The notes under the pieces are model-generated. The model searched no databases. It was not told the DNA's origin and worked only from the letters and a program-made list of their open reading frames with translations. A DNA stretch of 64,000 nt, from positions 82,566,644-82,630,643 of the forward strand of contig NC_088295.1 of the NCBI RefSeq assembly GCF_032854445.1, in the 5' to 3' direction. Of the stretch, positions 1,843 through 59,515 are shown in pieces. Position 1 is the stretch's first letter. Each line of letters begins with the position of its first letter. The position numbers were made by a program, and so were the translations under genes. The DNA is from Liolophura sinensis. Its lineage: Eukaryota > Mollusca > Polyplacophora > Chitonida > Chitonidae.

Positions 1843-1848
1843 TTTATT
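1843..1848 (-). promoter_or_regulatory. Poly(A) signal of the six-domain cysteine-rich gene
   Basis: AATAAA on the minus strand, about 55 bases past the stop codon of the gene at 1902-2656. Confidence 0.5.
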
Positions 1849-1901: not shown

Positions 1902-2656
1902 TTACGACCCGACTAAGCACCTGCAGGTGCGCGTGGATGTGCTACAGGTACCCACGTGAGTCTCCCAGCAGTGGTGGATACAGTCCATGGTCGTGCGACA
2001 GCTGACGGGTTTGCCGCTCACGTGAGGATCACAGGCACACGTGGAGTCTGCCCGGCACACGCCTTTGTGGGAGTTGGGACAGTGCAGGCTGCAATCCAGG
2101 CTATTGATGCAGTAGATGGATTGTTCTGTTGTGGCAGACATGCGGGTGGTGGTGGATAGAACCGCTTGAGTACTGGGCAGTAGCCAAGCGGGAATTGGAT
2201 CACAGGAACACGTTTGGTCGGATTTGCAGCTGCCTCTGTGAGTTACTGGACAGTGGATCCGGCAGCCAAAGTCAGAGTTACAACGGATGGTTGGATGGTA
2301 GTTGCACGTACATGTTTGGTTGTTGGAAACTTCGGTCTGGCACTTACCCACGTGGGTGAAGGGACAGTGGATTTTACAGTCCAGGTCGTCGTTACAGAAA
2401 AAGGTTCCGGGGATCGGGTTACAGGCACACTTCTTTGAGTTACAGACCCCTTCGTGCGTGTACGGGCAGTGCACCCTACAGTCGCTGGCGTCGTTACAGA
2501 AATAGGTGGGGTTTATGTTGCACGTGCATTGCCTGTCTGTACACTCTCCCTGATGGGTGATAGGGCAGTGGATGCGACAGTCCTCCTCATTGTTACAATA
2601 GATGGCTGAAGGAGGGGCTAGCCACGGAGATCCAGAAACGGTGACAAATACTACAG
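1902..2656 (-). CDS. Secreted six-domain CS-alpha-beta (defensin-like) protein, main exon
   Basis: A single 755-base exon encodes about 250 residues with six tandem cysteine domains. Each has six cysteines spaced C-x5-C-x3-C-x7-C-x(4-8)-C-x-C, with CRIHC- or CRVHC-like cores, a conserved THxG before the fourth cysteine and CxC endings. CxxxC plus CxC is the hallmark of the CS-alpha-beta fold of invertebrate defensins, and CxxHC is common in mollusc and arthropod defensins. Domains 1-4 are joined by short proline-bearing linkers; a serine/threonine-rich linker of about 20 residues separates domains 4 and 5; domain 6 ends in CRCLVGS. The in-frame ATG at 2675 is not the start: TCTCTTTCAG just after it is a splice acceptor and the exon begins at 2656 in phase 1, as in the paralogues. 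The first residues continue a signal peptide core (VVFVTVSG). Exon 1 is unresolved. A multidomain protease inhibitor of the oyster cvSI type is the main alternative. Confidence 0.8.
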
Positions 2657-4014
2657 CTGAAAGAGAAAATGACATGGAAAATAATATGGATTAGAACCTG
2701 AAATGTGTAAAAAAAAAAAAAAAATAGCCACAGGCTAGCCCGAATGAAATGTGTCCGACAAGCCTGTAAGGGTTTCAACTTTTATCATTTCCAAGATAAT
2801 GGGGAGTAAGCAAAACCCAAGATGGAACAAAAGTGTATTACGTGACTCACACGATTCTACTATAGATATAGCTGATCAATTTTCATTGTCTCAAAGAGAA
2901 CAGACCAAGTTTTCAGTATTTAGGAAATGAACAAGAATAAATGTAGCTGGCCACCATTCCACGCGATACCTGGAACGTGTGTAACGGCCATGTAATTAAG
3001 AGCAGATGAACTACATTGATTTTTCATTAACCGATCGTCTTTGTTAATTCCCGTGTCGAGAAACGGTTAGTATTACAAGGTATGTGATAAAGGATTTTAA
3101 AATAGAATAAATGATGTGATCTGAGCGTGTAATAAGTTTCGCTATTCCAGCGGTTGCCGATTCTAATGAAGAGCTAGGGTGCATAATTTAAAATTCATGC
3201 TAGGTGGCTGATATGAAGAAGTAGTAAGAGTGTGTATGAAGAATTGACAGTTTTGACATCGACAAAGTCGTTTTTTTCCCAGTATCACAACCAACTTAAC
3301 ACTGCCAGATGACTGCCGCATGTAAATTTAAAATTCACATCAAGTTCTGTCACATCAAGGTTTTTCACTACCAATTTTGCAAATTTTGGAGGAAGGCATG
3401 TGTATACTATCAGTCTGCAAGAGTTATAGCTATGCTGTAGTCGGTATGAAAGGTTTCGTTGGGTGTAGGAAAAAAAATCAAGTAGGACAAGATGAACAAA
3501 TGAAGAAAAGCTAAAGGTTAGCAAAAATGGTGCGTAATTGTCAGACAGTTGTTTAACGTTACTTCTTCAGTTCAAACTTTGGAGTTACTTTGTTGATGAA
3601 TACGATCTTTTCAAATGTTGAAGTTGTCTTTAATATAATGGTATTGATGATACTTTACTGCTGCCAGGCGCAATGTGTGCAAGTACTTGGCAGTGGAGTT
3701 TTGATATGGACAGGGTATTTCAGTTCGAAGATCTCGAACAATTTCACATCCCATCGCGAAAACCCACCAGTTAATGGGTTGATGCCCATCCTATACCCCA
3801 TTTACTCAATGCTGGATCTTAGCTTAATCCTGGTCTTTGGATTGTGTATGCTGTGAATTAAACTATCGTGCCACAAAGCTCAGTGTGTTACGCGGCACTG
3901 CTCATTATTGCTCTCTGCTTGGTATTTCGCTAGGGTTACATCAACGCAGATGCAGTTTCAACGGTGTAAGCCTCATTGCGTTTGAATGCTGTCTACATCA
4001 ACGAAGATGTGTAC

Positions 4015-5149
4015 TTGCCATTAGATTGAACAAAACAACGAACATGTCACTTATTTTGTCATGTATGTAACTCGGCATTTATAGGAGAACCCCTTAGGAG
4101 TGGTTGGAAAGGTGAATACTGTGCCTGTATGAATCGTCTTTGCTTGATGCAGCATCATATTGGAAGGGTGATGTTACAATGAGTTGTGATATAGCCATGT
4201 CATACTGTTGACAGCAAAAACAAGCATGGAATTACAGGTACACGCCGTGCTTCGCGTGACCTGATTGGCGGTCATCAACATTTGAATAAATATCATTTGT
4301 TAATAGTGTACTCAAAGTTAACAATGTACTCTGTATAATTAATTTAAAAACTTTTCACTTATTAATTGAACCCATTGGTGGAAGGATTGTGTATATAATT
4401 ATGCAAACAGATGTTTGTCATGTTTACTCGAGACCTGTTTGATTCTGATCCCAGCCTAAGTTTCAGAAATAGGGGTATTTATACTCTTCCATTCACTAAC
4501 TTGAAACTCGTTCTTTACGGATTGCCGTCCTCAACGTGCCTAAGCTATAGTTTGCAAAGACATTTAACTTTAATTTGTGATTTAACAAATAACAAAACCG
4601 GCATCAGCTAATTGGAAAAGACACGAACGTATAAGTTCATATGTAATGATGAAACCGTGGAAACGTACAGCAACAAAGGCCTGGGCTGACATTCCTGCAT
4701 GACACGCAATTTCTTATGTCATGAAGGTGTTCGTGTAAAAGACTTGCCTACTTGTTCTCCAGACAGAATCAGATTGGAGAGAAGCGTGACAGCACATGAA
4801 TCAACGCTCCAGCTTACAATATCTTGGGCCAGTACACACAGATCAATTTCAACGAATTTCAGTTAGAAATCTTCGTGCAGTCCATGATGACACTGTTGCT
4901 GTCATTGAGGCCCAAGAAGGTCACAGTTGTTATTAACTTTCCTATTGTTTCAACAAGTTTACCATCTAGTGTGAAGTTCATGAGAAGTCACCAATATAAT
5001 GATATTCTAATTCACGTTTCTTCAGTAATGTTAGAAACATGATAAACATCTATTTCCTTGCGTTTACACACAATACCGCTGTCGCGAGATGTTATCACTT
5101 AAATAATAAACTAACGGTAATATGGTATCTTACTGAGAACGATTTTCAT
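4015..5149 (-). other. Candidate first exons for the six-domain gene
   Basis: Two minus-strand candidates fit the phase-1 acceptor at 2656. (a) 4015-4045 starts MFVVLFNLMA, is 31 bases long (paralogues have 34) and lies 32 bases downstream of a TATAAAT (4077-4083), but has a weak donor (CAA|GTACAC). (b) 5134-5149 encodes MKIVL with a good donor (CTCA|GTAAGA) but no TATA box. Either would complete a plausible signal peptide. The sequence alone does not decide between them, and neither may be right. Confidence 0.2.
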
Positions 5150-6856
5150 TTTAAAGTCTACTCTAAATTCAAAAAATTAATGTAAAGCAGTGTCAAGAGA
5201 TGTCTTTGCAGACCATTTTCTGACGTAGGTATGTTTCCTGCTAATCAATTCTTTTCTCATGTATATGTAGGCCCTATCATTGTTTACGGCTGACATTCCA
5301 CTGTCCACTGATATTCGTGGACGTATATGTGTCTTTACCACAAACCATATGGTCGTCGAAACAAGAATATTATCTTGAGTGGAAGTAATTAAGGGAATAT
5401 TAGGTATTTGCCGGTGTGAGTGGCCTATGAAGGTGAGCCCGTAACCTGATATGCTTTCGCTGCAGCTATTGGCATATAATGTGTGCTAACTTTACTGCTG
5501 GGTACTGAGATATCGCAGATATGTCCTGGCGCACTCTTTGGCATTTATATATTACCTATTCCATGACTGAGTGAAGGCCAGTGGTTTGCTGCCTCTTCAG
5601 TCCTTATATAACATTTGGTTAGACTGAATTTTGACTACACTGTTTTAATTCAATTCGTAGTATTGAAAATAAACTCTTTTTAATACAAAATATATCATGG
5701 GCCCAAATATCCTGCCTCTCGCACATAGCATACGGTATGTTTACAATGACCGATTTGCATTCCTGCGATGGAAAGGTCAACATGTAAGAATATATAAGAT
5801 TGGTAAATTATTGAAAAATTAACGATTAACTTCCAGTTTGACTTCATATGAATAACCAAATAGTTCACGTGCAATTTAGTACGTGTTTAAGTTCCAGTTT
5901 TTCCGCTTACCTGCGACAGTTATTGACATGAATAATGTCATTATGTTGCTCTGATGTCAACACTGCGTATGGTTCGTGTCGCCAATGCCGTGGCCTCTGG
6001 TCACATTGATGTCAAAAGATAACGGAAGGCATCGGGCCGTGAGGATTGTACAGCTGGCTTCCTGAGCGTGACTATTGTTCACACTTTCATCTGGAGTCCT
6101 ATCCAATACAACGCTGTTTCCACAAGTCCTTCGACAAAACAAGGGAGCGGAATACATTTTCCATATATCAGTTCATTTATTGGGTCATTGCAATGTAAAC
6201 ATGTGCGTGAAGTTACACATAACTGTGCATTGCAATCCGTTAAAAACCCTTCCATGTCTTTGGTATTTGTTTTCCGCTGTTCCAACAGAAGATCCACATA
6301 TTGAAAATAAATGCTGTTTTCATAAAGAGTAACTCTTGAACAGTAAAAAAATTGCACGAACCCTAAAGGTACCCAGCAGTGTGTGTTCTGAATTCATGCA
6401 TGCTGGAATTGTCCATCCATCAATCATTGTATGAAAATAGAACTTCTGTTACTCTTTTTCTTTTTGTTATATATAATTCTATGAAAACAGGCCCATTTCT
6501 GCATGTGGAAAACACCGGGATCTATACACTAACAATCCTGAATATGTATAAGAGAATCCTTACAGTCATTTGTAAAAATCGCTAGGCCACGGAAGCCACT
6601 TTAATGTTATAGCTTAGTTTAAAAACTAACAAGGGATGCATCATCAAGAATAAGCGTTAGGAGGTATGCTGGTACCTGTGCAACAAGGCGACATATCCGC
6701 GTTCATACACACCATGTAGACAGACGTTGGTAGTCATCTGATTAGCCTACTGACCTATATGAAGGCGAACATGTGGGGGAATATCTCCAAGTGTGTGCAT
6801 TAGTACTTGTATTCAATTTACTAACGCCATTCAAATGTGATTTTCAATATTTAAAT
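5150..6856. other. Gene-free stretch
   Basis: AT-rich sequence with short spurious frames only. I see no conserved exon, RNA gene or recognisable repeat. Confidence 0.4.
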
Positions 6857-7016
6857 CTTCCTCTCCTGCTGTACGTGGAAAGATCTGCCAGCAACCTGCG
6901 GACGATCGTGGGTTTCTTCCGGGCTTTTCCAGGTTTCCTCCCACCATAATGTTAGTCGTCGTCATATAACTGTAATATTTTTGAGTACGGCGTAAAACGT
7001 CAATCAAATAAATAAA
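6857..7016 (+). repeat. SINE-1, 5' truncated
   Basis: Begins CTTCCTCTCC, contains the CCTGCGGACGATCGTGGG and TTTCCTCCCACCATAATG blocks and ends in GAGTACGGCGTAAAAC and AAATAAATAAA. This is the 3' two thirds of the tRNA-derived element whose full copies lie at 15.7 and 39.5 kb. Confidence 0.8.
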
Positions 7017-7148
7017 CTATCAAACTAAACATCGAATAATGTATGCAACCCCGAAATCGTAAAGCACTTAAGGAAATATCGTTTTCGCCATCGTTCCATA
7101 CCCATAACCCACAATGAATGCTTTCTTCCCAAGAGTGCTCAGCGCCAG

Positions 7149-7327
7149 GGGCCGAATTCTCAAAGTCATTTCTGACCTAAAATCTTTCCAAAACGCTCAG
7201 TTTTTTTAATACTTAAAGTTGAAATTTGGATACATCTGGCGAATTGTACTTTATAAAACCGAAAAATCAGCTTTAAGATTATACTTCAAATTTTGACTTA
7301 AGTGAGAATTGTCTTGTGGAATCGGTT
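7149..7327. mobile_element. MITE-like element with imperfect terminal inverted repeats
   Basis: The left end GGCCGAATTCTCAAAG resembles the reverse complement of the right end (CTTGTGGAATCGG), with A/T-rich non-coding sequence between, giving an element of about 180 bases. No transposase is present. The inverted repeats are imperfect and I could not define a target-site duplication. Confidence 0.4.
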
Positions 7328-7704
7328 GGCGATCTTGGGCGAGAACTAAGCTAAGAAAGGTTCATATACATGTAGACAGACCGACTGATGCCCGATAAAC
7401 TCTTGTTAGGATGACTTCGATACAGATTCTCTCATTGACACAAATCATTTCCAAACTGTTAGCAAGAAGAACTCGGACTATCCAGATTTTAGAAAGAACA
7501 CACTTTTCTATGTATATTAACGAACTCCATCTCTAGCTGGAATGATCCAGAAATTTAATGTTTTATCTCATTTAGAATTGTACTGTTAACAGGTGACAAA
7601 TTCGGATTTCTTCAATATCTTTCGAAATAGAGATTCACTTGTACCAAAATTGTGCAGGGGTTCGTTTTAATATCAACACAATGTTATCACAAGCGGATGT
7701 GATT

Positions 7705-7800
7705 TGATTGATTTTTTGATTTGTGTTTACACTGCCCTGACAACATTTCACTTATACAACGGCGGTCAGTTTGGTGCGTGGAGTGCTGGGGATATACCAT
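7705..7800 (-). repeat. SINE-1 relic
   Basis: Diverged minus-orientation tail: TTGATTTGTGTTTACAC followed by CATTTCACTTATACAACGG and GCGGTCAG, matching the SINE-1 tail read in reverse. Confidence 0.5.
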
Positions 7801-9039
7801 TGGCCTTTAGAAAATTCTCACATCAAGCGAGTTCAATGTTTATGCCACACTTCTGGAAGTCTAGTATCACCGACATGTCCTACTGATGTAATTACTCCTC
7901 TGTGTTGGAATTATTCGATATTCATTTAAAACAGTTCCAAAAATTTCACTTCAATCTGGGAAGGTTCTGAAAGCGTGCTCAGTGGATTAGCTGCATGTGC
8001 TTTTCTATTTGTTTTTGAAACTTAGATTTAGATTTGATATTTTGAATTTACATGTATATATTTTTGATTCTTGTTGTCAACTGAATGACGTAATATATAC
8101 AATGAACGTGCGGTAAGCAAAAATTAGCTAGAAACCGTGCAGTTTTGTTTTTGTTGTGTATCTGTATTTCTTTTCGTGCTAGATTTCAATGTGCATGTAC
8201 GTGTGAAGCAATCACGGTGGGTTGATTCCACGGCGTAAGCGTGGTCAAGCCTGCCAATCACGACAGCACATGTGTTAGACATTCGAGCGTTTTTGATGTT
8301 TGCCACCATCATACGGTTTATAGATGCAAACAAAGTTGCAAAGCTTTCCAAACCTGTTAATTGTACCGATTTCTAAACATTCTTCTCTGGCACTGAATTG
8401 AGTTCATTCGTGTGATAGACAACAACGCATGTCTTCTTTACGGACTAAGGGACACTGATATACAGTTAATACTCAAAGTTATACCCAAAGTGGGATATTT
8501 ATGCACCGATGTTCTTCTTGCTTTGGATTCAGACTTAACGGGGGACTGTGTTTTTTAAAATAATATGTTTATTGTTTTATAAATTATACGTAAATGTATC
8601 GACGTCCGAAACCTCATTCCATTTAGTGACAATACTGTGTTAAACTAGTTCAAGATGTCAGGTATCAAACTCAGCGTCGGAACGTACTTGTTGGGATGTG
8701 ACGTTACGCTGTTGGATATTCTGACAAGATATTCAAGTGGTTGTCATAGAAGAATTGTGAGGAAGATATTTATTGTCACAACATCGTTACAAACGTTTGA
8801 GCCATGAACACGCCTTGCCAAGGTCAAACTGCAAAAAGGGGCACTACAGCATGGTATGGTTTAGGATCTTGCGTATTTACATAACGGAATAAGGAATATT
8901 CCAATGGCTGTGCATGTTATTGGCTATTCCAGGAATGATGAGTATATGTCATGCACGGTCTTGATTACACCAGCTTTATGAATACCAACTTTTGTATAAC
9001 GACTTCCGCTTTGATGCATTTGGTCCAAATTAAGTGTTG
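7801..9039. other. Gene-free stretch
   Basis: No exon or RNA gene seen. Only short open frames without conserved content. Confidence 0.4.
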
Positions 9040-9378
9040 ACCGCCCCCGGTGGCTCATTTTGTGAAGCTTCCGTTTCCGGGGCGGTCGATCCATGGACAA
9101 TCTTGGGACGGGTTACACCCTTAAAACCATAAAAGAGGAAGTTGTAGCTTCCTCACTTGGCATTCGGCAATAAGCGGAGGTTCAACCACTAGTTGACCCG
9201 TATCCGTACAATGGCTCGGGTGGGGTGGCTCACTTGCCTTCGGTAAGTCGTCTCAGTGAAGCAGCACTAAATAAAGGAGTGGTGGAAATCAAGAAGGCAC
9301 ATTACATGCACTATAAGGACTCCTTCGTCGTCATATGACTGAAAGCTTGTTAAGTACCTCAAGCACTAACTTACTCCA
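9040..9378 (+). repeat. SINE-2 (tRNA-derived), near full length
   Basis: The diverged head has a tRNA-like GGGGCGGTCGATCC block. The body has AGAGGAAGTTGTAGCTTCC and GTTGACCCGTATCCGTACAA, and the end is CGTCGTCATATGACTGAAAG with CAAGCACTAACTTAC. The same blocks recur at 25.1, 27.6 and 38.0 kb. Confidence 0.75.
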
Positions 9379-10115
9379 ATTAAGTGTTTGGCAAGAAGGG
9401 TTCGAATCGCCAGTTTCATTGATTCAGTTTATAAATTTATTGTTAACAATGAATCAAAGAACGACGCTATGTAGAGACTAATGGTGAGCAGCCAGTGCTC
9501 GGCTGAAACCATGATGCAGTAAATCGATTATTGCATCGATTACCAACTTGTGCTGAATTCATCAAAATTGTTCTAAATATAATATTCGCTTACTTGCCCG
9601 AAGCGTTCGCACCATGGTCTACGCTACAATACACAGCAACTGGTGACAAATATGATGGGTAACACCAGTGCAGCAATCCCGGCCCCATTTATAAAATTTC
9701 AAAAATACACCTTGATTTTCCCGGGCGTTCCGTGGCGTGACTTATACAAATGTAATATTTTCTGTCTAACGTTCACACTTAGGTAAAAACACATATCACG
9801 TATTATGAAACAAGGATTTAATTATGTTAAGTACAATCACGAAATTCCGACACCGCCACAGTCCTTCAATCTTTCCATTTCTGAAAAAAATAAAAGTAGC
9901 GCAATTTAGTTATGCGTTCCGACTGTCTTTTCTTGAGAATGTGAATCGTCTGGATAATTCTCAAGATTAAGTAAATATTGTAAACAAATGATGGCACGCG
10001 CACTAGTGGAATTAATTTGACCTATTTGTTCCCCAGATTGAAAATATATTCAGACAAAAGGAATACTTTAGCTAATCCAGTCTGGATCTAATTTTCAAAC
10101 AGCGAGCTCACGTGT

Positions 10116-11011
<896 letters not shown>

Positions 11012-11060: not shown

Positions 11061-11079
11061 ATTTATACTGTTTGATAAG
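11061..11079 (-). promoter_or_regulatory. Core promoter: CTTATC-N6-TATAAAT
   Basis: The minus strand reads CTTATC (11074-11079), AAACAG, then TATAAAT (11061-11067), 50 bases before the ATG at 11011. CTTATC is the reverse of a GATA core. The arrangement is identical in the 14.3 and 23.3 kb paralogues. Confidence 0.65.
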
Positions 11080-13820: not shown

Positions 13821-14303
13821 TTATCCGAAGTGGGAACATCTGCAGTTCCCGTGGTAACAAATACCAAACAGCTCGTGGTTGTGACGGCAACTCCTCAGAC
13901 AGTCCAGTTCAGAGTTGCAGGAAGAAGGCGTGGAAGCCTCGCAGTGGTGGCACATGTTGTCCTCTTTGCTACAGAAGCCACGTGTTCCCGCACAGTGGCG
14001 ATCACAGTCGCGGTCATCATTGCAGAGAAAACCCTTGGCTGTTGTTGTGTCTTGTGCCATAGCGGCAACGACGACTGTTAATAAAGAATGATAATATTGT
14101 TGGACAATATAATTAATAAATTTTCATTGTTGGGTCACATCAAAACATTTTTTTTTCAATAAAGTATTGTGCAACTTTTGAATCCTCAACACCTTGAAGT
14201 AACAATCAGTTAGGGGTATCCGTTGTTTATTGGATATTAATAATTACTATTAAAATTTACTGGACTCACCGACAAAGAGGCACAGAACGGTGAAAGGAGA
14301 CAT
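13821..14303 (-). CDS. Secreted two-domain CS-alpha-beta (defensin-like) peptide, 95 aa
   Basis: Exon 1 is 14270-14303 (MSPFTVLCLFV plus one base, donor G|GTGAGT). Exon 2 is 13821-14074 (acceptor TTATTAACAG). Phase-1 junction, 95 residues. Same design as the 10.1 kb gene: signal peptide, DTTTAK propiece, acidic domain 1 with CxxC ending (CHHC), basic domain 2 ending CRCSHFG. Relative to that gene, about 12 substitutions fall in the signal, both domains and the inter-domain linker (LTA versus STP), while every cysteine is kept. The intron is only about 200 bases because it lacks the TA tract. The high identity, same strand and shared flanks indicate a recent tandem duplication. Confidence 0.8.
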
Positions 14304-15347: not shown

Positions 15348-15699
15348 CAGTCAACAAAATAGAATGCAATTGATTCGATTGAACTTAGAATTTGGTTATT
15401 TCAGCCAACAAATGTGTTCAACATGGATTTTGATCATGTTTATATTTTAATAGATTAAAGGAGAAGAAAACTTAAAACAATGGCACTATAGGCTGGAAAG
15501 AGCATATCTTTTCTCTCTGGGGGTGCTGGCTGCATAATTTTGTGATTGTTCCTCGCCATGCACGTTAAATCTGAACACGGCAAAGCTAGCATAAATCGCT
15601 GAGTTCATTGCGTCCTCCATCTTTAACACCCTATTATTTATGCTGGGGGTGTGATGCCTCTCAGCCAACGAGAGTCATTAAAATTGTCGGCTTGTTCGT

Positions 15700-15960
15700 T
15701 TTTTTTTTTGATTTGTGTTTTACGCCATACTCAAGAATATTTCACTTATACAACGGCGGCCAGCATTATGGTCGGCGGAAACCGGGCACAGCCCGGGGGA
15801 AACCCACGACCATCCGCAGGTTGTTGACAGACCTTCCCACATACGGCCGGAGAGGAAGCCAGCATGAGCTGGACTTGAACTCACAGCGATCGCATTGGTG
15901 AGAGACTCCTGGGTCATTACGCTGGGCTAGCGCGCTAACCAACTGAGCCACGGAGGCCCC
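15700..15960 (-). repeat. SINE-1, full length
   Basis: Best full copy in the window. Read on the minus strand it starts GCCTCCGTGGCTCAGTTGG (tRNA A-box region), then GTTAGCGCGCTAGC, GTGAGTTCAAGTCCAGCTC (B-box region), GGTTTCCCCCGGGCTGTGCC and AGTATGGCGTAAAACAC, and ends in an A-rich tail. It is a tRNA-derived pol III SINE, comparable to SINE families reported from molluscs. Confidence 0.9.
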
Positions 15961-17489
15961 CGACATGTTCGTGTAAATTCAGAACCTACGTCCAACATTC
16001 CGGCTGCCCGATCGTCAAACGGAAAACGAACTGTACTGTTCGTTACCTTCTGGGAAGAAGAGTTCTACCGGAAATGTGCGAACTGAACTTCGGCGGTTTC
16101 CGACTGGAATTCTCCTCCTAACACAGAAGACTTCGGGACTAGTTCTTAGGCAAAATGGAGTCGCCCACAGGGCATTTTGGCGCCGACTTTATTTATAATT
16201 TATCAACTTGAGGTACATATTAGAATTTTTTATGGCATGCACCTGCGAGGATATGCATACTCTTTTCAATGGTATTTGATATTTAAATTTTCTTCTCCTT
16301 TAAATGCATGCTTTTGGATATAAAAAACAAATTTGCACTGGAATAAATTTAGCAGACATACTTTCAGACCTTCTTTAGAACATTAATATGAAAAGACACA
16401 ATACAATAAAATGTGGTCCCAAATATCCACCCCACAAAAAATACAAGACCCGAAAAAAGTATTAAAGACCATATTTGCAAATAAGTTTTCACACTTTTTG
16501 GCATCATTTTTATGTTTTCTTCTCCTTTAAGTGTAGTTGGATTGTCAAGAATGTTCTGAAAAATTGTTTATCAAGTTCTTGCAAACCGTATCATAGGTGA
16601 AGAGGTCATGGTTAGGTGTACTTATATTCTGAACCCGAATACGGTCTGTTTTATCCTGGAAGTGCCATTATCATTTCTGTAAGCATTACCGGTAGGCTAC
16701 AATGGTGTAGGGAGTCAGTATCCAGACCGTGTAGTCTGTGGGTAGCATTTGTCCTCTACCAGAACTGGACGGGAGTGTGGGCAGTTGCATAAAATGAATC
16801 TTGTGAGCCAGTCCTTCGATTTGATATAAAATTTGAAAACAAAAAATAAATGAACTCTTCGAAACAGAGAGGAAATGACTACAGAGCCTAGAGGTCTAAA
16901 CTGTATGCGGGTAACGGTACATATTTATTAGTACAGCAAAAACGTCAAGACAAACGTAAATGAAGTCAGACACGATATCTGTTCTGATTGTTTTAGATCT
17001 ATGCGGCTTTGCGACTTCAGAGTAGATGAACATCAAGAATATTTGTTTTCACTGACATAATTAACGATGTAACATATACAGGCTGTTCAGACTTCTTTTG
17101 GCTTCGGTACGCTTTGGTGAAAACATGACTAATATTGTCTAGAAATGTTGTCTAGTAGTGCTTGTTAGCTAACCATACATGCCTGCTACAATTAAAACAT
17201 TGCTGGACCTGGCATAAATTATCTCCCCTTCCTTCACGTGGTGCATAGCTAAGCAGTGGGTGCGGCAGTCAGCTGTCGATCGTTTAGCTGGGTTAGCATA
17301 TGAGATAAGCCACACTTTGGTACCAGGTTTGTCTTGACAAGTGACCTTGGTGACTAGTTTTATCTGATGCTGATGGCGTCTTTTTATAGGCATAACTTAC
17401 ACCGAAGCCATGCTTAAAGTTCAACGGCCTTTGGAACACTATTAAAGTATAGTTGGTTACTAAATTTCTTGTCTGAAGTGAAATATTTA
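15961..17489. other. Gene-free stretch
   Basis: No conserved exon or RNA gene seen. Confidence 0.4.
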
Positions 17490-19365: not shown

Positions 19366-19532
19366 TTATCCGAAAATGTAGGTACACCTGCAGGTATGAT
19401 TACTGAGGCAGTGACCGCCTATGGAACCGAGGTGACGTCGGCAGCTCACATCACACTCGGTCCTGGTGCAAGGGCTTTTGCTTGTCGTTGTACCTTGTGT
19501 TGGTATGCCTTGTGCCACAGCGACAACGACAA
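19366..19532 (-). CDS. Single-domain CS-alpha-beta (defensin-like) peptide, exon 2
   Basis: A 167-base exon with acceptor TCTTTTGTCAG and phase-1 start, encoding VVVAVAQ, a propiece of about 12 residues rich in threonine, and one six-cysteine domain: C-x4-C-x3-C-x10-C-x5-C-x-C, ending CRCTYIFG and TAA. The start and acceptor match exon 2 of the 10.1, 13.8 and 22.4 kb genes, and the domain matches their second domain (CRC..FG end), so domain 1 is absent. The predicted mature peptide is basic (about five K/R against two D/E). I found no matching exon 1 with TATA box in the following 3 kb, so the copy may be orphaned or use a distant exon. Confidence 0.65.
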
Positions 19533-19830: not shown

Positions 19831-20640
19831 GTAAAATCGCCGACCTAATAGGACTGACAGTGCAAGCTTAATCCCGGCCTTCGACCGATATTTTTTCGCG
19901 TGGATTTTATGACAATACAAGACAGCTCTTGCGCATAGAGCATAGGGGTTGAAAAGCACTTGTGCTCCCCAAAATTTGGTTCTCCAGTAATACGACAACA
20001 CATCGCTCGTGAGGATGAACCCCGATAATTTGTCATCAGCCGGTGAGTTGTATTTTCTTGTCATTTCCTTTTTCCATAAGACTGAAAGTCATTGTCTAGA
20101 TTATAAATTCTGAGTATTGCATTACACCATCAATCAGTCTGCTATAGGTCAGCCGCAGATTAGCCAACGCTGCGCTGTGGGCTTCTTTTTCTTACATATA
20201 ATAGCTAAATTTTATACAGAAGAGGTACTTAAGCTTCAATGTACAGACCAGGGGACGATCAGCGCATGATGTAAACTGATGTTTTACGTTACATTGCTCT
20301 GAAATCAGCCTGTTCAGAATTTGCACCAAACATATATCAGACTTGGAAACGTCGTTTTGCATTTTCTGGATGTGTAGTTTGATTGTCACATGTAAAAGTC
20401 TCCACATACGAACAGTTGCATGTTTGTAACACACTTATCAGTCAACAATTTACAACCAAACATGCAATATCTTGTATATTTTCTTGTGTATATTTTCCTT
20501 TTATTGTGAATTCCTCGTGATTGCATATGGATAGATCAGAAGTTGTTCAACCTGTCAGACACCGATATGGAACATTTGATTTATTTATTTGATTTGTATG
20601 TATTTTACAATGCACTATACTAGCTTATACTAGCTTTTTT
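19831..20640. other. Gene-free stretch
   Basis: Only a short SINE-1 tail fragment (about 20110-20142, ATTCTGAGTATTGCATTAC) is recognisable. Confidence 0.4.
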
Positions 20641-20850
20641 TATTTGTTTATTTCATTCATGTTTTACGCCGTTGTCAAAAAAATTTCATTTATACGACAG
20701 CAGCCAGCATTATGGTTGGAAGAAACCCGGCCGAGCCCCAGGGAAACCCACAACTATCCGGAAGTTGCTGCAAGATCTTTCCACATATGGTCTGAGAGAA
20801 ATCCAGCATGAGCTGGGCCTAGACTCACAGCGACCGCATTGGAGAACATT
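20641..20850 (-). repeat. SINE-1, nearly full length
   Basis: TTTTACGCCGTTGTCAAAA, ATTTATACGACAGCAGCCAG, then GAAACCCGGCCGAGCCCC, ATCCAGCATGAGCTGG and CTCACAGCGACCGCATTGG. The tRNA-like 5' end is truncated. Confidence 0.85.
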
Positions 20851-22427
20851 TGATGAAATGGTCGCTAGACTAAGAAGATTATGTTTCCCCTTTATCAATT
20901 TATGTAATTCTTCCCAAACATCGTTTAAGCTGTCATTATAAACTAGACGCAGGTGTCACGGGAGAAATACGCGATAGTGTCACAGAGGCACAGTGCATGT
21001 AAACGAAATAAAACAGCGCATCTCCTCGGCACACCTGTTAATGTTATAATTCATCTATTTATTCAATTTATTGTTGCCTAACGATATACCCGAGAAGGGT
21101 TTATTTACATGAGTTTTGCGGGTAGCAGGAAATGTCCGGCGTAAAGCGCCAACCTAAGGCAAGTTACAGTCGAGCATTCCCACATGTGACGCATTGATAT
21201 GACCATCGTAGATAATGGTGGAAGAAAAGTCGTCTTCAACGAACGTCAGACTGAAGCATATATACATGTATACTTATATACGTTCGTGAGTGACATAACC
21301 GTGAAGAAATAACATTTACTTGTTGCATGTTATTTACTAATCAGAAATATTATGTACAGGAAAGTGTTTAGATGTAGTGCCTTTAGCGTTTTATGTCTTT
21401 AACGTTTGCCCTTTAATGAGTTAGTACTTTAATGGGTAGTTTTCATATTCACTTAAAAAATGTTTTAGTCCATTTTCAAGAATATTTCACCTATATAATC
21501 GTGATTGTAATGGTATTTTTTACTTCAGAAAGAAATGTAAAATAGCACGTAACGCAAACTGTATGTGCAAACTGACTATTTATACTATTTGACAGAAGGC
21601 AGGGCACAGTGACTTGTAATAAGCTCAGAATTTATTGATAGCATGGAGTTTGCAAAATAATATCAAAGAATCAGCGGCTTCACCACATGACGTCATTTCC
21701 GTCATCTGAAAAATAAGAATGACTTTGTTACGGGTATACTGACAGATTGACTGACTGATTGTAGTTTACTCTTATACTTAAGTATTGCTCTTCTTATACG
21801 TTAACTTTCAAGTTTTGTGTGTGTGAAAAAAAACAAAACACATGTCCCAGACTACATCACCGACATTTGGCTAGTTACTCACATACTTTCGCTCATGTGG
21901 CGGACGTATATGCACACTACATTTGTGGAAGACAAGTAGTCCTTAACTGACGGTAGATTGCGCAAATAAACACACGAAAGTCGCCGACAGCTTATCATCA
22001 CAAAGTCCTTTTATACAGAGAGGGCACATCTACAACTTCCATATCCAAGGCCTGATTTGAACCGGGCACCACGTGTGCCCTGGCCATTGAAAGGCAAACT
22101 CCGAAGCCAATCGCACATGGCTCGTTTCTTGTAACCTGCAGTGGGTTGTGGGTTTCGCCCTACCCTGTATTCTCCCACCATTATGCTCTCCACCGTTGTA
22201 TAAATGAAATATTCTTGAGTATAAATAATTAAGTATAAATTACACTACACTGTTAATACTAAGTGGTTTCCAACCCTTTGAATTACACATTTGTAAGTTT
22301 CATTTTTTCCAAGGGTTTTGATATTGTGATACTTTAGCTGCGTACTTTTGAATCAACTCCATTAGTGGTTTTATCAATCTTAACCAGCTTAAGCTTAACC
22401 GTAAAAGATGACAATTTCATACCGTTT
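20851..22427. other. Gene-free stretch with SINE-1 fragments
   Basis: Contains SINE-1 tail fragments at 21465-21525 (minus) and about 22125-22235 (plus). A minus-strand TATAAATAG near 21573 resembles the peptide-gene promoters, but no ATG exon follows it. Confidence 0.4.
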
Positions 22428-23231
22428 TCATCCGAAGTGAGAGCATCTGCAGGTTCCATCACGATGGCAAATCCCGAATAGCTCATGGTTATGGCGGCAA
22501 CTCAGCAAACAGTCTATTTCGGATGTACAGGAAGTTTGAGTGGGCGCTTCGCAGTGGTGGCACATGTGGTCGTCCTTGCTACAGAAGCCGCGGTACCCCG
22601 AGCAGTGGCGGTCACAATCCTGGTCATCATTACAGAAGAAACTCTTGGAAGTGGTTGCAGCTGGTGGTGTTGTTTCTTGTGCCACAATGGCAACGACGAC
22701 TGACAACAAAACGCGATCATGATTTTATGGTATAGTTTTAATGATCTTCCAAAATAATTAGCTTTTACCACCGAAGAGAATAGTTTCGTTATTGGCCTCT
22801 ATTTCAGGCTCGAAAAGCTACTTGAACAAGAAGAACACATTGTTGGGTAATAAGACAGAATGATGTGTCGCACGAGTTAAATTCGTATAGAACTGGTTCA
22901 TTGGAAGAAAGCATTGTTCTTGAATAACTGTAGCCAATCAGTTTCTAACTACTAATGTACGTTTAGTTAGGCTTCAGGTAGCTTCTGGTTTAATGTACCT
23001 GGCAGGTGGTAAGTGTTCACGCCTCGACCCAGAATTCTGAGGGCCGTGATGGAAGCCGCAAAAAGCTCCACTGCCGCGTTGAAGACCAATCGAATAAGTA
23101 AATTAATAAAGTCACCACAGAATTCAAATGATCTTCTTTTTTGTTGATATTGTTCCGATACGCATGTTTCACTTAGACGAAAGGGATAGAAACTCACCGG
23201 CAAAAAGGCACAGAATAGTAACTTGAGACAT
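22428..23231 (-). CDS. Secreted two-domain CS-alpha-beta (defensin-like) peptide, 101 aa
   Basis: Exon 1 is 23198-23231 (MSQVTILCLFA plus one base, donor G|GTGAGT). Exon 2 is 22428-22699 (acceptor TTGTTGTCAG). Phase-1 junction, 101 residues. The propiece is six residues longer than in the 10.1 and 13.8 kb genes (ETTPPAATTSK). Domain 1 keeps C-x5-C-x3-C-x6-C-x6-C-x2-C with core CDRHC and end CHHC. Domain 2 keeps C-x5-C-x3-C-x9-C and ends CRCSHFG. The intron is about 500 bases. It is the most diverged of the three two-domain copies in this group, but the precursor layout is conserved. Confidence 0.8.
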
Positions 23232-38792: not shown

Positions 38793-39220
38793 TCAGGGCC
38801 CCCACCAGTGCGAGCCGGCAAGACATCGACATTGGTTGTTATCGCGGCATCGGCCAATATGGCGGGCGCAGTGGATTGCGCAGTCGTGGTCATCGTTACA
38901 GTATATCACTTCTCCGTGATCTCTCACGCATTCACAAGTGTGATCGTTCGCCGTGTCGCACGTGCCTTGATGGGTCTCGTCACAGTGTCTGCGACAGTCG
39001 TCATCGTTGTTACAGAAGATCGGTGCTGGTGTTGTGTGTTGACACTTCACGGCCGCGGCTGCTGTAACATAATACCAAGAAAACTGCACTCTACCATGGA
39101 GTGTGGGTGTAACTAGAGCTTAATTTTCCAAACGTTTTACATATTATTATATTATATGACAGATGACTTAGAGGCACATAATTTACCGAAAACAACCAAT
39201 AAAGTAATTAGTTTCCACAT
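38793..39220 (-). CDS. Secreted two-domain CS-alpha-beta (defensin-like) peptide, about 100 aa
   Basis: Exon 1 is 39187-39220 (MWKLITLLVVF plus one base, donor G|GTAAAT). Exon 2 is 38793-39061. Phase-1 junction, about 100 residues. The acceptor is a tandem CAGCAG, so exon 2 can start at 39061 or 39058 and include or omit one alanine. After the signal peptide and a KCQHTTPAP propiece, domain 1 is C-x5-C-x3-C-x7-C-x8-C-x-C (core CRRHC, end CEC). Domain 2 is C-x5-C-x3-C-x6-C-x5-C-x-C (end CRCLAG). Both domains resemble the six-domain protein more (DETHQG/THxG motif, CxC in both) than the 10-23 kb group. A TATAAAT lies 47 bases upstream of the ATG. Same intron position and phase as the other members despite the 15 kb gap. 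Confidence 0.8.
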
Positions 39221-39273: not shown

Positions 39274-39533
39274 GGAGTCCCACTCCCTTGAGATTTCACC
39301 TACACAAATATATCAGTTAATCAGAGACCAGGTGACACACTACTCCCCCGACTCCCACGCTGAGTATTTTACTGTTTCCGATGTCCAAACTCAAGCTATG
39401 AATAAAAGTACGCTTCGATTCACAAAACAATTTTATTCATATGAAGAAAAATTGCAAATTCCACAAAATAAACAAGGATGTCTTGTGTCCCTTTCTCCCC
39501 ACACTTTCATGTATTTCGTCAGTTTCAGGTTTA

Positions 39534-39796
39534 GACGCCTCCATAGCCGAGAGCTAGTGCAGTGCAATGACTCAGGAGCCTTTCACCAGTGTGGTCGCCG
39601 TGAGTTGAAGTCCAGCTCATGCTGTTTTCCTCTCCGTACGCAAGTGGGAAGGTGTGTGAGCAACGTGCGTATGATCGTGGGTTTCGGTCACTGCCCGGTT
39701 TCCTTCCACTATAATGCTGGCCCCCGTCGTATATGCGAAATATTCTTGAGTTTGGCGTAAAACACCAAATAAACAACAACTAAATAAGTAAATAAT
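39534..39796 (+). repeat. SINE-1, full length
   Basis: GCCTCCATAGCCGAGAGC (A-box region), AGGAGCCTTTCACCAGTG, GTGAGTTGAAGTCCAGCTC (B-box region), GGTTTCCTTCCACTATAATG and TTGAGTTTGGCGTAAAACACC, ending in an A-rich tail. It accounts for most of a 142-codon open frame here. Confidence 0.9.
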
Positions 39797-55590: not shown

Positions 55591-57317
55591 CATCCACAGA
55601 TTGGCTGCGTTGAGTTTGCAGCCTAATCTACACTGCGTCTTGGTGTCGTGCTCACCTGACAATTTGATCTGTACATCGATATCCAAGAGTTAAATCGGAG
55701 AAGTTCAATCTGTAGACCTAGAAGTTATCGATGTCATTTTTTCTGGAAGAAAATAGATTATCGCAAAAAGAATGAGTATGAGAATAATTGTCAGCCTGAG
55801 CAAAACCGATTAAAGCAGAAAGGCAAATATGTTCCGTTTAGAGCAGTGTAACAATAACAAGAAACGGTTGTAGTTTTGAAACTCTTCAGTAACTCAATAG
55901 AAAAAAAATATTGATTTATTTTATGGACGTTTAACTCCTTAGACAAGAATACATGACATATGTTTGAATTGAACGGGCATGCGGTGGAACTGCAAAATGG
56001 TGTTTATGGTTTGAACACCTAGAAGGGTAATGAAGAGTAAGATTCAAGTTTTTGTTTGTTTTCTGATGTTTGAAGCTAATTTCCGACTGTTCCCATAGCA
56101 ACAGACCACTGGCTCAGCACAGAAAAAATAGTCCAGAATTGTTATTTTTTATTCTGTTTACGTTTTCTGAGATTTATTGACTTAACAGTCGAGCTGTATT
56201 TCCATGCTTGTACCAAGGAACTGTAATAACTCGCTACACTGCATTACATCTCCTTCATCCCTTAACATTATTGGCATCCTCACCAGAATTCCAGGAATTC
56301 CAAATGAGCATCATCATGACAAACATCTGAGATGAAAGATACGAGATCAGTAAAAAGTCAGTGACTTTTTTTGGCAATTTAAGGTATTTAGAAATATACC
56401 CCTAAGCACTAAAATCGGTTATTTATATGTGTTCGGGCGCTTTAATTAAACTTTGTGCATACAGCTCCTGCATCCAGTTTGCAGATTATAAAAAAGTAGG
56501 TCATTAAGGTTTGTTCTAGTTAGTATTCGTCCTTGTCTGTAAGATGTCTTGATGCCATATTGGACTTGAGGGCAGGTGAGTTAAAGAGCAATTACTGTAC
56601 AGAATTAACAACAAAGGGTTTGCTGTCTATGTCTACAGGAGTCGAACCAGGTGCCACTCGTGCTGTGGCTTTGATGTTGGGCAGCACCTGACTGTTAAGT
56701 AGAGCATCCACCCATATATAAACCCGGAAGATGAGACCTTAAGATGCCATCCTGGCCTACCTTTTCTGGACACTGTGTACGTCTATTTCACTTGATCATG
56801 GCTTTATCTGTATTCTCTGAAAACGAATAAACGTATATTTAGAACTGCGAATACTTAGAATATTATATATTGATAACTTTATGAAGCGGTTAGAAGATTC
56901 AGACAACATACTGCTTTGTAACAGCCATCATGTGTGCTGAGTTGGATCGATATCGTCAATTCACCCCAGCCTCAAGCTGTGTACATTTTACTTTAGCATG
57001 CATCAGTAAATTAAGTTAAGCCGCATTCGCATGGTTTGATTTGTCGTTTCAACTGGCCAAATTCGGCTAGTCGAACGAAAATAGAACACGCTATTTCATA
57101 ATTCCTGTTAACGGTGGATTCCTAACAAAATGCATAAAATAACGTTTGTCTTTCTTTCCTTCGACTTGTCGAATTCCATGTGGCACTGCGACATCGAACG
57201 GCGTGAAGACGGCTTTACACAGAGAATGGCTACAGATAGTGATACAATAGGTGTAAACAGTAAAATGTCGAACTTCCGTACCCAGAATACCAGATTTGTT
57301 AGGGACTTTGATCTTAC
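55591..57317. other. Gene-free stretch
   Basis: No exon recognised. A possible tRNA-like SINE remnant lies near 56.63-56.72 kb (GAGTCGAACCAGGTGCC and AAGTAGAGCATCCACCC). Confidence 0.35.
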
Positions 57318-57530
57318 AATTTATTTATTTGTTTGATTTTTGGTTTTACGCCGTATACAAGAACATTTTACTTAAACGACGGCGGTCAGAATTATGGTGG
57401 AAGGAAACCGGACAAAGCCCGGGGGAAATCCACGATCATACGAAGGTTGCTGCAAACCTTCTGATGTACGGATGGAAAGGAAGCCAGGATAAGCTTCACT
57501 TGTGTTCACAGCGACAACATTGGTGGGATT
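57318..57530 (-). repeat. SINE-1, nearly full length
   Basis: TTATTTATTTGTTTG tail, TTTTACGCCGTATACAAG, AACGACGGCGGTCAGAATTA, GGGGGAAATCCACGATC and CTCACTTGTGT-type head region ending before the A box. Confidence 0.85.
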
Positions 57531-57724
57531 GATCTTACAAAAAAGAATTACATGTATACTATGAGGTAATTTCACTTTTTGCATTTGAACACCCCATGCC
57601 ACAAGCACCACTGAGTTAAAATCTAAAGTAGAAATGTTTGCGCGATGTTTTAAATTGCCGCAAGCGTTTTATTGTTTTCTCTCATTTAAATTACTCCTTG
57701 ACCACAATTCTGTTTTTGTTTTAG

Positions 57725-58714: not shown

Positions 58715-59020
58715 GTAAAACTGGACCAGCGACAACAGTGCAATAGTCGTCAAATGATGAAAAAGAAGGATCAAAATTTGGTGAAGTACGGTCTCCTGTC
58801 AATTTAAGTCAGGGTTGTATTCTAGATGCTCATGAAAATGATAAAAGAGCAACAATTTCAAGCTCCCTAGCACAAAATAAGCACAGAGGTTCATTGCAAT
58901 TTATCAGAGGTCATTGGTCTAGAACTGCTAAAAATGTGTGATGACATCTCATTTAACATATAATAACATTAAAACAATGCAAAGGGACCAGGCCTCCGGG
59001 ATGCTTAGTCAAATAACAGG
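58715..59020 (+). repeat. Dispersed repeat R3, longest copy
   Basis: Contains both the 5' blocks seen at 24.7 kb and the 3' blocks (GACCAGGCCTCCGGGATGC and TTAGTCAAAT) seen at 24.4 and 27.4 kb. About 300 bases, non-coding. Confidence 0.5.
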
Positions 59021-59088
59021 ATGGTGGATTTATGAACGAATTCCTGAAAGTAATAACATTGGTTTTATTATTTTTTTTTGTACACATG

Positions 59089-59190
59089 GGCCTCTGTGAC
59101 CGAGGTGATAAGCATGCCAGAGCAGCGCAATGGGGTCGCTGTGATTTCAAGTCCTGCTCATACTGGCTTCCTCTCCGGCCGTAAGTGCGT
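59089..59190 (+). repeat. SINE-1 head fragment
   Basis: GGCCTCTGTGACCGAGGTG, GGTCGCTGTGATTTCAAGTC, ACTGGCTTCCTCTCCGGCC. Ends abruptly after the tRNA-like part. Confidence 0.8.
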
Positions 59191-59199
59191 AGACCTGTC

Positions 59200-59515
59200 C
59201 ACAGGTATGGAGACAAAGCCACAAAATGCAGACTAAATGTTAAATCAACATAGGATTTTGACACAGGAGAATAAAACAGCAGGATAACATAACAGCCAGA
59301 CATCATCTGAACAATATTCTATAATAGTTTTAAAGCCTTGGGTACGGTGTGAATATAACAGGTACATACAGGTATGGTGATAGTGACAAAACGTAAACGA
59401 AATACTTAATCAGCTTACAATGTAAATACAGGAAACTAGAACAGCATTCGTGTTGCAACAGTCAAACATTGTCGGAACAGTATTAATTCTTTAGTGCTTT
59501 AAAGTCATGCTTAAA
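59200..59515 (+). repeat. Diverged tandem duplication, two units of about 145-160 bp
   Basis: ACAGGTATGGAGAC/ACAGGTATGGTGAT, GTTAAATCA/CTTAATCAG, ACAGGAGAATAAAACAGC/ACAGGAAACTAGAACAGC, GAACAATATTC/GAACAGTATTAATTC and TTTAAAG occur in the same order in both halves. Confidence 0.6.

Follow-up and report, generated by a model that had tools for sequence, protein, structure and literature searches.

Structure of the locus

The DNA analysed here, called the window below, is a 64-kb stretch from the chiton Liolophura sinensis (C1:82566644-82630643 of a 609-Mb, 632-contig genome), and our subject is a gene on its minus strand whose terminal exon encodes six consecutive cysteine modules. Read from 2656 to 1902, this exon is one open frame that holds the end of a putative signal peptide, the six modules and then a stop, and the stop-to-stop open reading frame (ORF) around it (1902..2690, 262 amino acids) contains all six modules. 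The exon starts directly behind the TTTTCTCTTTCAG acceptor, in phase 1 and inside the signal peptide. A preliminary description of this DNA had given these exon boundaries and had placed all six domains in a single exon: both statements are borne out by the acceptor, the stop and the frame that stays open across the modules (Table 1). The exon DNA has a single match in the genome, namely itself, and scans of the window with Rfam and for transfer RNAs gave no matches.

The six-module gene belongs to a cluster on one strand, together with g10, g13, g22 and g38, which have two modules each, and the single-module g19; in all six genes the exon-2 acceptor is in phase 1 and within the leader. The genes g10, g13 and g22 have exon 1 in common, and likewise a TATAA box that lies 56-63 nt ahead of the ATG; conserved TATAA core promoters stand upstream of these three near 11067, 14359 and 23294 (minus strand). 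The same-strand paralogs were absent from the preliminary description. One of them, g19, joins the leader of a two-module gene to just one diverged module, a layout that looks like the loss of module 1.

Scanning the whole 64 kb for first exons gave five candidates: three are the exons 1 of g10, g13 and g22, and one lies in a TA repeat. For the six-module gene, the candidate at 5941-5911 is the only one in 2657-9900 that passes the filters, and it would give a precursor of 261 residues; it is also possible that the gene starts without an intron at the in-frame ATG of MSFSLSAVVF. No exon 1 was accepted for g38 or g19 with either the two filters or a promoter/exon-1 profile, the candidate near g19 being set aside as part of a TA repeat. 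The profile, which was built from g10, g13 and g22, finds those three only and not the six-module gene, g38 or g19, whose promoters may have diverged.

Table 1. Features of the six-module gene and its paralogs (positions within the window).
Feature	Position	Strand	Remarks
Terminal coding exon, six-module gene	1902..2656	-	phase-1 acceptor CAG/CT at 2656; TAA stop 1902-1904
AATAAA poly(A)-type signal	1843..1848	-	~54 nt past stop of six-module gene
Second AATAAA	1830-1835	-	downstream of six-module stop
Candidate exon 1, six-module gene	5911..5941	-	MTLFMSITVA; donor G/GTAAGC, phase 1; no TATA box near
Module D1 (Cys1-Cys6)	2520..2597	-	pattern scan
Module D2 (Cys1-Cys6)	2421..2498	-	pattern scan
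Module D3 (Cys1-Cys6)	2304..2396	-	9 residues Cys4-Cys5; one N-glycosylation-type NQT
Module D4 (Cys1-Cys6)	2202..2282	-	pattern scan
Serine/threonine-rich linker D4-D5	2112..2201	-	30 residues; residues 153-169 of chain model at predicted local distance difference test (pLDDT) <50
Module D5 (Cys1-Cys6)	2031..2111	-	pattern scan
Module D6 (Cys1-Cys6)	1917..2000	-	pattern scan
g10 (two-module paralog), exon 2	10116..10369	-	ORF, phase-1 acceptor
g10, exon 1	10978..11011	-	TATAA box 56 nt upstream of ATG
g13 (two-module paralog), exon 2	13821..14074	-	ORF, phase-1 acceptor
g13, exon 1	14270..14303	-	MSPFTVLCLFV; TATAA box 56 nt upstream
g19, leader and one diverged module	19366..19532	-	open frame; gene or remnant; no exon 1 found
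g22 (two-module paralog), exon 2	22428..22699	-	ORF, phase-1 acceptor
g22, exon 1	23198..23231	-	MSQVTILCLFA; TATAA box 63 nt upstream
g38 (two-module paralog), exon 2	38793..39061	-	ORF, phase-1 acceptor; no exon 1 found

The modules and their fold

The modules had been described as C-x5-C-x3-C-x7-C-x(4-8)-C-x-C. All six are present, but this strict spacing fits five of them and not D3, so that the pattern for the whole chain reads C-x5-C-x3-C-x7-C-x(4-9)-C-x-C. Scanning all six frames against 100 first-order Markov sequences of the length of the window, we find six strict matches (five modules of the chain and one module of a neighbour) where the null gives 0 in 100, and 15 loose matches where it gives 0.05 per sequence. 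The mature chain of 242 residues contains 36 cysteines and 15 histidines. The serine/threonine-rich linker lies between the fourth and fifth modules as claimed, and the other four of the five linkers have 7-10 residues each. The reported lack of dibasic sites between modules likewise stands: the sole such pair of the mature chain, KK at residue 66, is inside the hairpin of D2. What needs correcting is the charge: the domains had been called more acidic than typical antimicrobial defensins, and the chain is near neutral rather than strongly acidic, with an isoelectric point (pI) of ~6.5, a net charge of -3.2 at pH 7.4 and single-module charges of -3 to +1 (K, R, D and E counted). The two-module paralogs are more acidic than the chain (net -2.2 to -7.1).

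The proposed cysteine-stabilised alpha-beta (CS-alpha-beta) fold is supported by motif, profile and predicted structure. This fold is defined by C-x3-C and C-x-C (the cysteine-stabilised helix motif) together with a third C1-C4 pair, with an n-loop of 4-16 residues in the insect type (PMC5116183; here and below, published systems are described as in the accessible parts of the sources), and the array is present in all six modules of the chain. We aligned 14 modules: the six of the chain and both modules of g10, g13, g22 and g38. C-x-C occurs in 11 of them, g10a, g13a and g22a carrying C-x2-C, and a glycine stands two residues ahead of Cys4 in all 14, forming a GxC element that resembles a gamma-core. 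A single module (34 residues) is predicted as a helix and two strands with a pLDDT of 85. This is the helix followed by a two-stranded sheet of the scorpion-toxin topology, and the nearest solved structures to the model are scorpion K-channel toxins and defensins, with scores that at 34 residues are all weak.

Neither the six-module chain nor any paralog has a Pfam match above the curated cut-offs. The best matches, short of the cut-off, to Nodulin_late (expectation value, E, 0.057 for the chain) and Toxin_2 (E 0.013 for g10, 0.021 for g13) were put down to shared cysteine spacing. A phmmer search of the whole chain against PDB gave 0 matches; for the whole-chain model there were 45 PDB matches at E up to 10, none below 0.001 and the best at 0.56, and no tandem CS-alpha-beta structure is among the 45. 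In a prokaryote genome collection 10 stretches fit a pattern and 0 were confirmed.

Conservation is distributed unevenly along the module. Every bead of the chain follows the frame C-x2-H-C-P-x-T-H-x-G-x-C, apart from a single deviation at P and another at T: His10, His15 and Gly17 are identical in 6/6 modules, and Asp6, Pro12 and Thr14 in 5/6. Within the same loop, positions 13, 16 and 18 hold 6, 5 and 5 different residues across the six modules, and positions 3-5, 8 and 9 vary too, with 4-5 different residues each.

Age and spread of the family

The modules appear to be old. Tandem Repeats Finder detects no module repeat at the DNA level, only a 12-nt repeat at 2665-2690, which fits old duplications. 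Comparing the six modules with one another and with g38a, over 22 codons, gives 21 pairs. No synonymous rate (dS) could be obtained for 14 of them, which we read as saturation; the other seven have dS of 0.71-1.65 and nonsynonymous rates (dN) of 0.22-0.61, the weakest pair being D1-D6 with dN 0.61 and dS 0.71. Saturated or high dS against lower dN suggests that the modules have mostly been held as protein. A module tree of 15 rows, g19 included, has long branches with one of 12 inner branches well supported, too few to order the internal duplications. Between g10 and g13, dN is 0.061 and dS 0.590 (dN/dS ~0.10), and by this measure both genes keep their two modules under purifying selection.

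Single-protein searches of the genome find no family member outside the cluster, though equally diverged members would be missed too. With the six-module chain as query, E up to 0.001 returns the chain itself, g38 as the only paralog and one spurious repeat; at E up to 10, g10 finds g10, g13 and g22, and g38 finds itself and the six-module chain. The searches are too insensitive, since the six-module and g38 queries missed g10, g13, g22 and g19, while g10 missed g38, g19 and the six-module chain. A search of the flanks with the module profile, over 50 kb on the left side and 70 kb on the right, shows no further copy at E <0.01. The rejected match, on C8 (E 1.5e-4), lies in a repeat of low complexity with many CKLHAKL-type peptides; at L016 (G000:C8:56790004-56790312), a long tandem repeat reads as such peptides in several frames. 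Two weaker profile matches were recorded, at 17172-17396 (E 0.066), where Pfam gives no match, and at L003 9633-9791 (E 0.047).

Proposed product

The gene would encode one secreted chain of ~242 residues and ~26.6 kDa in which six CS-alpha-beta modules follow each other as beads on a string, each bead held by three disulfides that are expected to pair C1-C4, C2-C5 and C3-C6 (the cysteine frame is read from the sequence, the fold is predicted), with a flexible serine/threonine-rich hinge predicted after the fourth bead. Secretion is suggested by the hydrophobic leader. To judge by the layout of the paralogs, the module probably multiplied inside the last exon and introns were not gained. The best interpretation of such a secreted string, which lacks dibasic sites between its modules, is a multivalent effector outside the cell, and an uncleaved chain, as put forward in the preliminary description, is compatible with the sequence. 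The chain most likely stays whole and would serve to defend the host extracellularly by binding with several heads, every bead offering the helix-to-strand loop C3-P-x-T-H-x-G-x-C4, in which a near-constant frame would present x positions that differ between beads. The most plausible target would be a protease of microbes or parasites, by analogy with the I84 inhibitors of molluscs. A secreted, uncleaved, inhibitor-like defence protein of this kind is the reading that we prefer, tentatively and at somewhat less than an even chance.

Such an inhibitor role draws some weight from the comparison with I84. These serine protease inhibitors (MEROPS family I84; cvSI, scSI), which act on subtilisin-type proteases, have ~70 residues, 12 cysteines, ~8 kDa (masses 7.1-9.3 kDa) and a pI of 4.98-6.11; their genes, clustered in tandem, have three exons, of which 2 and 3 carry six cysteines each, and the first intron falls inside the signal peptide (PMC9198434). 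Our two-module neighbours resemble them in the hydrophobic leader, 12 cysteines, size of ~8-9 kDa, similar pI, tandem arrangement and phase-1 first intron in the signal peptide. Cut at the assumed Q, the four paralogs have 77-83 residues and 12 cysteines, g38 with a 13th just before the Q; with this assumed mature start, pI falls inside the published range for 2/4 and mass for 3/4, with g22 at the edge. The published cysteine array is CX5-8CX4-5CX7-9CX4CTC-X6-23-CX5-7CX3-6CX5-8CX4CXC (PMC9198434). D1-D2 agrees with 10 of its 11 intervals, C-T-C among them. The remaining four pairs of adjacent modules agree with 7-9 and the four paralogs with 5-8; none of these nine agrees with all 11.

Several results weigh against an inhibitor. 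The second I84 interval (Cx3C here, Cx4-5C there) fails in 9/9 pairs or paralogs, and the intron that separates the two I84 modules is absent here, where all modules of each gene share one exon. The two published I84 motifs, joined by one X, score 4.3 bits against our module profile, which is equalled by 173 of 2000 cysteine-preserving shuffles; for motif 2 alone, 572 of 2000 shuffles are as good (the published motifs only were compared). In Mytilus, the single-module peptide sCRP-I H1 inhibited 0/4 proteases and 0/4 bacteria (PMC10138031), which also calls for caution. Finally, 242 residues and 36 cysteines are far from the ~70 and 12 of I84. The inhibitor role keeps, on the side of the two-module neighbours, the size, cysteine number and first intron, and loses the Cys2-Cys3 spacing and the exon layout. 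Because of the second interval, the missing inter-module intron and a motif similarity not above the cysteine-keeping null, the six-module chain is, as far as its sequence goes, not filed as I84.

Relation to other tandem cysteine-rich proteins

Two animal systems come closest, each in a different respect. In the wasp Nasonia vitripennis, nasonin-2 and nasonin-6 contain 4-5 CS-alpha-beta repeats and lack protease-processing signals, and genes of the family are duplicated in tandem; nasonin-6 has one exon per repeat, from which the authors infer exon duplication, and they discuss the repeats as a route to oligomerisation (PMC2853521). The likeness is one of architecture, namely tandem repeats without processing signals and, in nasonin-1 and nasonin-2, a phase-1 intron after the signal peptide. 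The nasonins differ in being insect proteins with a net positive charge and, in nasonin-6, a repeat per exon, compared with six near-neutral modules in one exon in the chiton.

The Mytilus mCRP-I precursors, in contrast, share the exon layout. Whatever their number, the 2-5 knottin modules of these precursors sit together in a single last exon; the precursors are described by a 'pearl necklace' model and their genes form a local cluster. The authors make a case against the duplication or shuffling of exons and propose looking at replication slippage (PMC10138031). Like our gene they are molluscan, clustered and have all modules in one last exon; unlike it they have a knottin fold, other cysteine arrays, a propeptide, the mature peptide in the fourth exon and a slightly cationic character (pI 7.2-8.8). 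Neither the CRP-I knottin array nor the propeptide is found in the chiton chain, which has the C-x3-C/C-x-C frame, a helix in the model and only a short leader before the first cysteine.

Further afield, CS-alpha-beta domains are likewise concatenated in MtDef5, a highly cationic bi-domain plant defensin that permeabilises fungi and oligomerises (PMC5700942), and in the fungal defensin-like bizyarsin peptides (PMC5234102), but these have two domains and come from a plant and a fungus. Scorpion short-chain K-channel toxins and the trypsin inhibitor ToPI1 share the same short n-loop topology; they are single-domain venom peptides whose likeness to the chain is limited to the cysteine frame.

The tandem CS-alpha-beta chains that we found in the literature stop at 4-5 repeats (Nasonia), and the single-exon strings use knottins (Mytilus). 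The chiton gene combines the fold of the nasonins with the exon layout of the Mytilus precursors, and its module count exceeds by one the largest described in either. No six-module molluscan CS-alpha-beta chain is among the open-access literature matches listed. Since tandem strings of this fold are already known in other animals, the chain is an unusual variant and not a new category. Its value lies in the cluster: genes with one, two and six modules, a shared intron phase and, in three cases, a shared leader exon and promoter allow the growth of module number inside a single exon to be tested, and likewise avidity against several specificities or several products.

Alternative explanations

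A more novel reading, though unlikely, is a lineage-restricted multi-headed recognition protein, one chain covering several targets or variants of one target, with the histidines acting as a pH or metal switch. In this reading the beads keep a constant frame, with its two invariant histidines, and vary the three x positions of the loop from one to the next.

Also unlikely is a membrane-active array that kills microbes by local concentration and is possibly switched on in acidic compartments by its 15 histidines. A pH-dependent antimicrobial would need a swing such as the one computed here, from -3.2 at pH 7.4 to +13.6 at pH 5, and the gamma-core-like GxC of all 14 aligned modules, the fungal permeabilisation and oligomerisation of MtDef5 (PMC5700942) and the proposed oligomerisation of nasonin repeats (PMC2853521) point the same way. 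However, at physiological pH the net charge is close to zero or negative, and many proteins turn cationic at pH 5, the swing having been computed without a control protein set.

It is rather improbable that the chain is a polyprotein, cut into single modules by proteases that need no dibasic site. Several linkers hold prolines and the serine/threonine-rich hinge has low confidence in the model, but four of the five linkers are only 7-10 residues long, dibasic sites between modules are missing and g10 and g13 preserve both their modules under purifying selection.

Somewhat more doubtful is a channel-directed chain, in which the beads, in the manner of scorpion K-channel blockers, act on eukaryotic parasites or predators and gain avidity by repetition. 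For the Mytilus CRP-I peptides, an activity against eukaryotic parasites is considered possible by the authors (PMC10138031). Most of the best matches in sequence and fold are short K-channel peptides of scorpions, with Toxin_2 short of its cut-off for g10 and g13, but these matches track the cysteine frame. The alpha-KTx blockers use a pore-blocking lysine, and the alignment of the 14 modules shows no conserved lysine.

Less probable again is that the chain has a structural or carrier role in mucus, egg capsule or shell matrix, or binds metal through its histidines, the modules being inert, protease-resistant beads. The 36 cysteines and 15 histidines in 242 residues, two of the latter invariant in each module, could suit such a role, but the CS-alpha-beta cysteines are expected in disulfides, which leaves only histidine for metal, and the gastropod multidomain metallothioneins are, in the accessible literature, a different protein type. 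Finally, it is very unlikely that the exon is not read whole and that the consensus donor GG/GTAAGT at 2347 inside D3 splits the products, since the frame is open across six modules that are conserved as protein and the donor bases also encode the invariant glycine.

Neighbouring features

Tail-to-tail with the six-module gene, two exons on the plus strand (345-494 and 1042-1143, stop 1144-1146) join in frame. We take them to resemble the mitochondrial assembly factor FMC1, a name left unconfirmed by Pfam, which gives no match. A dispersed repeat occurs on both strands at 15590-15901, 20624-20941, 39531-39779, 57257-57532 and 58953-59318 and, on C8, at L016 1113-1355; its frames read roughly '...KPTT..RLL.DL.TYG.R..QHELDLNSQRPHW', and it is perhaps a short mobile element. 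Elsewhere on C8, molluscan haemocyanin beta-sandwich units stand in a row at G000:C8:37880506-37891931 (L025-L029 and three further matches) in open frames of 429-529 amino acids: the family has matches in 0 of 14 control genomes, compared with eight units here.
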